A stretch of DNA of 64,000 nucleotides. Source: Halogranum gelatinilyticum (lineage in GTDB: Archaea; Halobacteriota; Halobacteria; Halobacteriales; Haloferacaceae). The notes beneath the pieces are model-generated. The model ran no database searches. It had not been told where the DNA came from and was given only the letters and a program-made list of their open reading frames with translations. The DNA is taken from positions 477,295-541,294 of the forward strand of contig NZ_FNHL01000001.1 in assembly GCF_900103715.1 (NCBI RefSeq), read 5' to 3'. Numbering within the stretch: position 1 is the first letter of the stretch; each line of letters opens with the position of its first letter. This document shows positions 18,051 through 19,305 of this stretch, one piece after another. Both the position numbers and the translations under genes were made by a program.

Positions 18051-18121
18051 GCCCGAGGCGGGATTTGAACCACGGTCGCTCCTTGCAGTCGCTCTCTGGT
18101 TCAAATCTCTTCGTAGTCGCC
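18051..18121 (-). repeat. tRNA-Asp-derived inverted repeat, copy A
   Basis: Bases 18051-18071 match the 3' 21 bases of the nearby tRNA-Asp genes (T arm and acceptor, without the discriminator). The block continues away from the tRNA sequence and contains a perfect 11-bp inverted repeat, GATTTGAACCA (18062-18072) and TGGTTCAAATC (18097-18107). It closely resembles 19101-19168. It lacks the rest of a tRNA and cannot fold as one. An attachment-site remnant or small mobile hairpin is the likely explanation. Confidence 0.6.
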
Positions 18122-18123
18122 TT

Positions 18124-18178
18124 CCGAACACGACTCACTCGTCGCTGACGCTCCTCGTTCGTGTTGTGTTCGGAAAAA
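18124..18178 (-). terminator. Possible terminator after the tRNA-Asp pair
   Basis: Read on the minus strand, the tRNA is followed by TTTTT and a stem of CCGAACAC with GTGTTCGG around a 30-base loop. The T-run directly after the tRNA is enough for archaeal termination; the hairpin may be part of the neighbouring repeat. Confidence 0.4.
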
Positions 18179-18251
18179 CGCCCGAGGCGGGATTTGAACC
18201 CGCGTCACAACCGTGACAGGGTTGTATGATGGGCCACTACACCACCCGGGC
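18179..18251 (-). tRNA. tRNA-Asp (anticodon GUC), copy 1
   Basis: 73 nt. The acceptor GCCCGGG pairs with CUCGGGC (one G-U), and the discriminator is G. The anticodon stem CAACC/GGUUG encloses the loop CUGUCAC with anticodon GUC, and the T arm is GCGGGUUCAAAUCCCGC. CCA is not encoded. It lies 49 bases downstream of copy 2 with no TATA box between, so the two are probably cotranscribed. Confidence 0.96.
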
Positions 18252-18300
18252 AGACAAGCCGTGGAACAGGGAGTGGCTCCCGAACCACGAAGCAAGCAAA

Positions 18301-18373
18301 CGCCCGAGGCGGGATTTGAACCCGCGTCACAACCGTGACAGGGTTGTATGATGGGCCACTACACCACCCGGGC
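18301..18373 (-). tRNA. tRNA-Asp (anticodon GUC), copy 2
   Basis: 73 nt and identical to copies 1 and 3. An AT-rich box (TTATTTAATA on the minus strand, about 18398-18407) lies just upstream. The preceding GAGATGGCAAG resembles the sequence upstream of copy 3, so the promoter was duplicated with the gene. It is the first gene of a two-tRNA unit with copy 1. Confidence 0.96.
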
Positions 18374-18471
18374 TTGCTACACCCAGGTATTTGCCGATGT
18401 ATTAAATAAGACTTGCCATCTCTCGTTGGGATTGGTACGACGTGCCGACCCACATCAACCACGTCACGGGG

Positions 18472-18885
18472 TTACGGTATCCCACCGGTGAACTCGTACT
18501 CTTCTGCCCAGTTGATCGATGGATGGTCGATCTCCGCTTCGAAACGGAGTTCCATCTTCTGTCGTGTCGCCTCCTCGACTCGAATCCAGTAGAGCGTCTC
18601 AGTCTCCGGATACCGGACGACGAACGCGTCGATCTCTCCGTGGTAGGTGCGTTCGTGGTAGTCTCCGTCTTTCGTCGTCTGTGAGTGCGTGTTGAACCGA
18701 ATCGTCTCGTCTTTGTTCTGCCACGCTGTCTTACACTGCACCCGGTGGAGTTCGTCGTCATCGTCGACGACGAGGTCGTATTTGTCGTTGTCACCGAAGG
18801 GGACCGAGACACTGTAGCCGCTCGCAATCAACCGCGAGAGGATTTTCGCTTCGGTCTCGTCACCAGCGTCTTTCGTGTTCGCCAT
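18472..18885 (-). CDS. PD-(D/E)XK nuclease-like protein between tRNA-Asp genes
   Basis: 137 aa. An early conserved Glu (ETEAKI, residue 12), then GDNDKYDLVV with Asp37 and QCK at residues 50-52 form the D-Xn-(E/Q)XK active site. It resembles the group-I-intron-associated PD-(D/E)XK endonuclease family (PF11645-like; from memory). Family members are small homing or resolvase-like nucleases, some catalytic and some orphan. It stands alone between tRNA-Asp copies 3 and 2 with no methylase, antitoxin or integrase beside it. Its codon use is slightly less GC-biased than that of its neighbours. It may be a selfish gene or the remains of an integrated element. Confidence 0.75.
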   Translation of the reverse strand: MANTKDAGDETEAKILSRLIASGYSVSVPFGDNDKYDLVVDDDDELHRVQCKTAWQNKDETIRFNTHSQTTKDGDYHERTYHGEIDAFVVRYPETETLYWIRVEEATRQKMELRFEAEIDHPSINWAEEYEFTGGIP

Positions 18886-19100
18886 TGGAGGATGCTGGTA
18901 TTCGAATCAGCCGCGGGTTACCTAAACGTGACTCCAGAGGTAGTGTCAAGCCGGAACCAAACGGTACGTGAGCATAACTGTTTAGCCTCTACTCGACCTG
19001 CTCGGCGAGACAAGAGCCTCCAGCTCTTGTTGGCTTCCGTTCGGTCGCCTCACGGAAACGACGAGACGCCTCGCTGGAGAGTTGAAATCAGCGAAACGTT
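18886..19100 (-). mobile_element. Possible IS200/IS605 (IS1341-type) end remnant
   Basis: This gene-free stretch contains a perfect 8-bp hairpin, ACAAGAGC (19010-19017) and GCTCTTGT (19023-19030). On the minus strand it is followed by a start-like AACAGTTATGCTCACGTACCG at about 18980-18960, which opens a frame (MLTYRLVPA) that stops after nine codons. A hairpin just before a truncated MLTYR-type start is what a decayed TnpB-only element would leave. The call is tentative; no transposase remains. Confidence 0.3.
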
Positions 19101-19168
19101 CGAGGCGGAAGTTGAACCACGGTCACTCCTTGCAGTCGCTCCCTGATTCAAATCCCTCTGTAATCGCG
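19101..19168 (-). repeat. tRNA-Asp-derived inverted repeat, copy B
   Basis: About 58 of 67 positions match 18054-18121. The inverted repeat is degraded here (AGTTGAACCA against TGATTCAAAT). Like copy A it lies on the 3' side of a tRNA-Asp gene in the same orientation, 65 bases beyond copy 3, so tRNA and repeat were probably duplicated together or arose from the same integration process. Confidence 0.55.
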
Positions 19169-19232
19169 TCGACGCTCACGACTCACGAGCACACGCTACG
19201 CGGTGCTCGTCGGTTTAGTTCGCGTCAGAAAG

Positions 19233-19305
19233 CGCCCGAGGCGGGATTTGAACCCGCGTCACAACCGTGACAGGGTTGTATGATGGGCCACTACACCACC
19301 CGGGC
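19233..19305 (-). tRNA. tRNA-Asp (anticodon GUC), copy 3
   Basis: 73 nt and identical to copies 1 and 2, in the same orientation. It has its own promoter-like upstream region (CTTATC preceded by GAGATGGGAAG on the minus strand, about 19338-19353). It is separated from copy 2 by about 860 bases holding the nuclease gene and the repeat remnants. Confidence 0.96.

Follow-up and report, generated by a model that had tools for sequence, protein, structure and literature searches.

The DNA stretch analysed here, referred to as the window, comprises 64,000 nucleotides of the haloarchaeon Halogranum gelatinilyticum (contig NZ_FNHL01000001.1, forward strand; G000:C1:477295-541294, where G000 denotes the study genome). 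It harbors three tRNA-Asp(GTC) genes, all on the minus strand, at 18178-18252, 18301-18373 and 19232-19305. They were called by ARAGORN and their mature parts are identical (repeat family D1), in agreement with a preliminary description of the sequence that had proposed three identical genes in the same orientation. Read along the tRNA strand, the locus consists of tRNA-Asp copy A (19232..19305, also matched by Rfam RF00005), a decayed tail/hairpin unit (about 19097..19231), a gene for a nuclease of 137 amino acids (18472..18885), copy B (18301..18373), copy C (18178..18252) and an intact tail/hairpin unit (18051..18177). All of these features share the minus strand, so that copy A lies upstream of the nuclease and copy B downstream of it. 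The anticodon stem-loop of each copy matches CATACAACCCTGTCACGGTTGTGA exactly (19259..19282 in copy A, 18327..18350 in copy B and 18205..18228 in copy C, all minus) and contains the pair A28-U42, the 28:42 numbering having been assigned by the author from the cloverleaf. In copy A this pair is the putative immunity mark of the nuclease, as judged from its association with nuclease subtype Asp-I. The nuclease gene is the only open reading frame with a family match between copies A and B, where it had been placed before. No integrase gene is found at the tRNA-flanked locus 18051-19305, in which one reading frame has a family match and the remaining ones were judged by inspection; this supports the earlier suggestion of a system that acts without an integrase. 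Rfam detects no intron at the nuclease locus, and the nuclease reading frame is freestanding. A tRNA-Asp gene adjoining rpoH recurs across haloarchaeal families.

The 137-aa protein matches the Pfam family PF11645 (PDDEXK_5) with 148 bits (cut-off 26.1; E 2e-43). Its sequence also matches I-Ssp6803I (2ost; E 3e-7), and the predicted fold (pLDDT 87.5) superimposes on this enzyme with a Foldseek TM score of 0.79 (E 4e-9), the four chains of 2ost being the top Foldseek matches. In an alignment with 25 relatives (A1), E12, D37 and Q50 are invariant and K52, which forms the Q50-x-K52 motif, is nearly so. Between pairs of species the dN/dS of the nuclease ranges from 0.05 to 0.21, which indicates that it is kept functional. 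The window nuclease is the only PF11645 gene of the genome, and its closest relative is found in H. amylolyticum. NCBIfam contains no family that matches it, PADLOC recognizes it only with a generic 'homing endonuclease' model, and no match was found in plasmids, either as DNA or as protein. The gene is thus best described as a freestanding PD-(D/E)XK homing-endonuclease-like gene of subtype Asp-I, on the basis of family, structural match, fold and alignment.

The intact tail/hairpin unit behind copy C is composed of hairpin 1 (arms 18122-18134 and 18163-18175), an antisense T-arm, a loop and a copy of the tRNA tail. The tRNA-Asp 3' tail is copied perfectly at 18051-18071, and a perfect 11-bp inverted repeat is formed by GATTTGAACCA at 18062-18072 and TGGTTCAAATC at 18097-18107. 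The unit behind copy A is a decayed relative, with 87% identity over 67 nt (repeat family D2) and three mismatches in its tail copy. The tail-related blocks previously noticed on the 3' side of these two genes, inverted repeat included, are therefore real. Such units are common in the genome. In the 300 nt downstream of 23 of its 50 tRNA genes, the gene's own 20-nt tail recurs with no more than 2 mismatches. Three of these matches are the next tandem tRNA copy. Tails compared with the downstream regions of other tRNAs gave 8 matches in 2432 comparisons and shuffled sequence gave none in 2500, so that the tail copies are not due to chance. Units of about 70-190 bp lie behind about 20 of the 50 tRNA genes. 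They combine a hairpin and an antisense T-arm with a GC-rich loop, in which the core CAGGGAGCGA...GAGCGACCGTG is recurrent, and with the gene's own 3' tail, copied exactly; they are sometimes arranged in tandem, two or three in a row. Some units are common to this genome and to H. rubrum, with a conserved hairpin 1, and others occur in only one of the two species. The core pattern is present in 91 of 145 haloarchaeal genomes and gives no match in the reversed control.

It had been proposed that the nuclease may be the driver behind repeated integration or duplication at tRNA 3' ends, with the hairpin and tail blocks as its products. The nuclease and the blocks do both lie at tRNA 3' ends and are interleaved in the window, but this explanation is highly improbable. 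Units stand behind about 20 tRNA genes of a genome with a single nuclease, they are found in 50 of 87 haloarchaeal genomes without the nuclease (57%) and in 41 of 58 with it, and many nuclease loci have no unit. Since the spread of the units is independent of the nuclease, the nuclease is not their driver. The triplication of tRNA-Asp does not call for it either, as tandem tRNA-Asp genes are also found without the nuclease, and the evidence presented below favours the anticodon stem-loop over the tRNA 3' end as the nuclease target. Two separate phenomena are thus found at this locus, the nuclease system and the tail/hairpin units, the latter being a class-wide element family unrelated to the nuclease.

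The tail units may be tiny integrative elements or their scars. Integrative elements that encode tyrosine recombinases use tRNA genes, with conserved and partly palindromic targets (PMC8371274). The 3' tail duplication of such elements resembles the units, and a direct repeat of the tail at the far end is found in the units and not at the nuclease. In contrast to those elements, which have an integrase, the window locus has none, and the nuclease locus is independent of tail duplication. In Haloferax gibbonsii LR2-5, partial tRNAs adjoining full copies have been counted, and those at integrative elements were treated as termini (PMC7921747); they are probably of the same kind as the tail-duplication units, although the hairpin/antisense architecture and the class-wide family do not appear in the portions of that account considered here. 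No earlier description of the units was found in the openly accessible literature. In four loci with units (L041, L065, L069 and L073), hairpin 1 often resembles CTGC-GAACGACAGTGA-GCAG, which might form a small loop and tandem G.A pairs on folding. A hairpin pattern searched in viral contigs was left unused, because its 25 matches, with 16 fixed bases, are about the number expected by chance according to the author's estimate. As a separate observation, H. rubrum (G145, C13:160615-164451) packs at least 11 tRNA matches into 4 kb; the cluster may be a provirus or a tRNA array of viral origin.

The link between the nuclease and tRNA genes is not particular to the window. All of the 30 loci first fetched lie near a tRNA gene, 29 of them with the tRNA on the upstream side and one with a tRNA interrupted by the nuclease. 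The core set consists of 121 distinct nucleases, gathered from these 30 loci, 80 from GTDB genomes and 33 more. An intact tRNA gene on the same strand is located 40-761 bp upstream (median 223) of 114 of them, and its identity is restricted to Asp(GTC) in 83 cases, Pro(TGG) in 14, Asn(GTT) in 11 and Lys(TTT) in 6. For a random gene, the chance of such adjacency is about 0.5%, as estimated by the author from 50 tRNAs, a genome of 3.8 Mb and a window of 800 bp. The possibility that homologues never lie near tRNA genes, which would have spoken against the initial idea, can thus be discarded: the link between nuclease and tRNA genes holds throughout the class and outside it. In Ktedonobacteria, four core nucleases abut the 3' ends of tRNA-Met, tRNA-Arg or tRNA-Lys genes in a tail-to-tail arrangement. 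One further nuclease (L251) adjoins a truncated tRNA-Pro 3' tail (ATTCGGGCGGTCCCAC) about 75 bp upstream, where the tRNA-Pro gene is broken by rearrangement, and another (L267), one of the seven without an intact upstream tRNA, sits at a contig edge. No paper tying haloarchaeal PF11645 proteins to tRNA genes was found in a search of the openly accessible literature.

A different arrangement is displayed by locus L163 (G021:C14, 1433-1959), where tRNA-Lys(TTT) has, at the canonical position, an intron of 451 nt that encodes a PF11645 nuclease. Joining of the exons yields a complete tRNA, and a bulge-helix-bulge-like fold can be drawn at the intron, which is of the archaeal tRNA type. This is the only intron-encoded nuclease of the core set, and the openly accessible literature yielded no earlier case of an archaeal tRNA intron with a homing endonuclease. 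Relatives are also present in viruses. In the haloviruses HSTV-4 (L388, 1887-2423) and HJTV-3 (L389, 687-1223), a PF11645 relative lies 2 bp behind a viral tRNA-Asn, whose anticodon stem-loop, read in HSTV-4 only, is recoded with respect to the host-type tRNA-Asn; several IMG/VR contigs contain a PF11645 relative inside tRNA clusters. Fourteen distant, low-score PF11645 proteins mostly have no tRNA link. Divergent haloarchaeal proteins (L294-L304), which form a second, different PF11645 branch, also lie mostly away from tRNAs, with the exceptions of L297 (tRNA-Gln) and L303 (tRNA-Lys).

The protein tree (n=122) separates the groups Asp-I, Asp-II, Asp-III, Pro, Asn and Lys, with the intron-embedded nuclease of L163 in the Lys group, and three changes of the tRNA label suffice to explain it. 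Asp-I and Asp-II each occur in several host families, so that host relationships alone do not account for the subtype. The distribution is patchy, as any PF11645 match is found in 58 of the 145 haloarchaeal genomes. In three genomes of genus g22 (G025, G106 and G142), tRNA-Asp and one and the same response-regulator gene flank the nuclease, which is absent from the orthologous site in three others (G034, G091 and G004). Outside this genus, the nuclease splits tRNA-Asp copies A and B, whose spacing in relatives without it is only about 30-40 bp. Two features of a freestanding homing endonuclease, adjacency to the presumed target gene and nuclease-free alleles of the same site, are thus observed, and the proposed selfish nature of the nuclease is supported.

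The anticodon stem of tRNA-Asp carries a compensated polymorphism at pair 28:42, which is either A-U or G-C. Among the hosts of the 83 distinct Asp-linked nucleases, those with type I have A-U in 48 cases, the standard G-C in none and other variants in three, and those with types II and III have G-C in 30 cases and A-U in two (Fisher 1e-17, a value not corrected for phylogeny, with sister species non-independent). The three non-A-U hosts of type I are two with G28-C42 plus G29-C41 and one with U27-A43 plus C28-G42. Of the two A-U exceptions, one is a type-II locus (L243) in which the fifth codon of the nuclease is an in-frame stop. The other (L246) comes from a MAG and is the sole mixed-allele locus among 54 multi-copy tRNA-Asp loci, pair 28:42 being homogeneous in the remaining 53. 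In the six genera that contain both subtypes, the allele fits the subtype throughout, except for the broken nuclease of L243; N. jeotgali (L238), for instance, has type II and G-C. Both 28:42 alleles occur together in only one genome of the 145 (G095; L353 on contig C10), about 600 bp apart, and no nuclease was detected in that genome. The idea that the A-U allele is the scar of a lost nuclease was rejected, as 20 nuclease-free A-U loci contain no nuclease remnants.

Passive linkage would be another way to account for this association. The nuclease and tRNA-Asp would move as a block, and pair 28:42 would hitchhike without any role in immunity. The distance between nuclease and tRNA is always within about 0.8 kb and each subtype is a clade, so that shared descent could give such an association. 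A control within the same tRNA genes makes this explanation unlikely. A second polymorphism, which involves position 7 and the 3' strand of the acceptor, is distributed evenly across the subtypes (32:18 vs 21:11, p=1.0), in contrast to the almost perfect sorting of 28:42, and the acceptor part of the position-7 polymorphism is nearer to the nuclease gene than 28:42. Under simple hitchhiking both polymorphisms are expected to associate with the subtype, which makes this control decisive. The exceptions also weigh against passive linkage: the three non-A-U hosts of type I carry two other stem variants, neither of them the standard G-C, and the one clean combination of A-U with type II has a broken nuclease, which is also the only misfit in the six genera with both subtypes. 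A link between the allele and cutting by the nuclease is strongly suggested by these sequence comparisons.

A further alternative is that the nuclease is a domesticated host factor, which would use targeted breaks and gene conversion to maintain or homogenise the copies of tRNA-Asp. The strong purifying selection on the nuclease and the homogeneity of 28:42 in nearly all multi-copy loci would agree with such a role. It is nevertheless scarcely credible in view of the patchy presence of the gene, its loss or gain within a genus and its relatives in viruses, and the tRNA-Asp copies of nuclease-free hosts are likewise homogeneous.

For tRNA-Asn and tRNA-Lys, the candidate protection would take a different form. 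Short introns occupy the canonical site of the tRNA-Lys genes that adjoin a nuclease and of most of the tRNA-Asn genes that do so. Of the genomes of genus g2, 6 of 8 with the nuclease have the tRNA-Asn intron, as against 0 of 7 without it (p=0.006, not corrected for phylogeny). One of the two intronless carriers (G015) has a stop in its nuclease, and in the other (G008, L280) the nuclease is intact, which speaks against the proposed protection. Nine other genomes have tRNA-Asn introns without an Asn-linked nuclease, and the tRNA-Lys gene of the H. gelatinilyticum genome has an intron with no adjoining nuclease. Because introns also occur without the nuclease, the support from introns is weaker than that from tRNA-Asp. 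For tRNA-Pro, no clear association of alleles with the nuclease is seen, the anticodon-loop allele being present in 2 of 6 Pro-nuclease genomes and in 8 of 139 others. The tRNA-Pro(TGG) genes adjoining Pro-type nucleases have two anticodon-loop forms (CTTGGGT and TTTGGGA) and very variable stems, with variants seen at L146, L147, L162, L249, L252, L255, L263-L266 and L273-L275; the stem-loop CAGCG-TTTGGGA-CGCTG recurs across genera.

These introns also bear on the idea of an RNA-level toxin, in which the protein would act on the tRNA rather than on its gene, cleaving the anticodon arm, and a resistant tRNA from the linked gene would be the antidote. Few tRNAs are targeted and the covarying part is the anticodon stem, as such a toxin would lead one to expect, but introns that are spliced out of tRNA-Asn and tRNA-Lys cannot protect the mature tRNA, and the tRNA-Asn intron tracks the nuclease in g2. 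As the family and fold are, moreover, those of a DNA homing endonuclease, a toxin of this kind is very unlikely.

The explanation favoured here, to which a probability of about 0.7 is given on comparative sequence grounds, is that the nuclease is a freestanding homing endonuclease of the I-Ssp6803I/PF11645 type that nests at tRNA genes and carries linked immunity. It would nest directly downstream of its target tRNA gene and, in alleles that lack the nuclease, cut the DNA of the anticodon stem-loop. Such a break, once repaired from a donor with the nuclease, would leave the recipient with both the nuclease and the resistant tRNA allele. Insertion downstream of the tRNA leaves the anticodon target uninterrupted, and therefore immunity would depend wholly on the linked allele. 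In tRNA-Asp, pair 28:42 would decide sensitivity, and the resident copy would be safe by virtue of a compensated swap, A-U with type I and G-C with types II and III; in tRNA-Asn and tRNA-Lys, immunity would often be conferred by an intron beside the anticodon. The DNA of the anticodon arm is near-palindromic, and a compensated change of an RNA pair would represent a symmetric change in both half-sites.

The closest known system is I-Ssp6803I (PDB 2OST), the PD-(D/E)XK homing endonuclease from the tRNA-fMet group I intron in Synechocystis. The haloarchaeal nuclease shares with it the Pfam family, the fold, the small size and the tie to a tRNA gene. The two differ in that I-Ssp6803I resides in a group I intron, whereas the haloarchaeal nuclease is freestanding and downstream of the tRNA, one Lys member in a BHB-like intron aside. 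Their tRNAs are also different, tRNA-fMet in one case and Asp, Pro, Asn and Lys in the other, and so is the presumed immunity, which relies on interruption of the site for I-Ssp6803I and would rely on a linked base-pair swap or an archaeal intron in haloarchaea. Freestanding homing endonucleases and collaborative homing are known from phages, as illustrated by SegA and MobE of T4 and by the psbA intron of cyanophage S-PM2 with F-CphI. There too, the nuclease lies beside its presumed target, and a linked intron or sequence divergence serves as self-protection. Unlike these phage systems, the haloarchaeal one would target a cellular tRNA gene in archaeal chromosomes, and its protective mark would be an archaeal tRNA intron or an anticodon-stem allele. 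Collaborative homing is not applicable to tRNA-Asp; for tRNA-Asn in g2 the intron tracks the nuclease, but nuclease-free introns exist elsewhere.

The protection of tRNA genes from integrating elements by introns was proposed by Randau and Soll in 2008, as cited in PMC4090602. The present findings touch on the old questions of why tRNA genes have introns and why anticodon stems vary. The subtype of the nuclease predicts a single tRNA base pair, with a control built into the same gene, and a single enzyme with two 75-bp substrates would suffice to test the idea of protection. If it is true, the repertoire of small nucleases would be enlarged by a set that recognises tRNA genes, and a homing endonuclease would spare its essential host gene, with base-pair compensation in the RNA acting as camouflage of the DNA site. 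We lean, by a small margin of confidence, towards the broader view that a class-wide guild of tRNA-specific homing endonucleases inhabits haloarchaeal chromosomes and viruses, with immunity by stem pair swap or intron. Such selfish nucleases would then shape the anticodon-stem sequences of archaea and their gain of tRNA introns.
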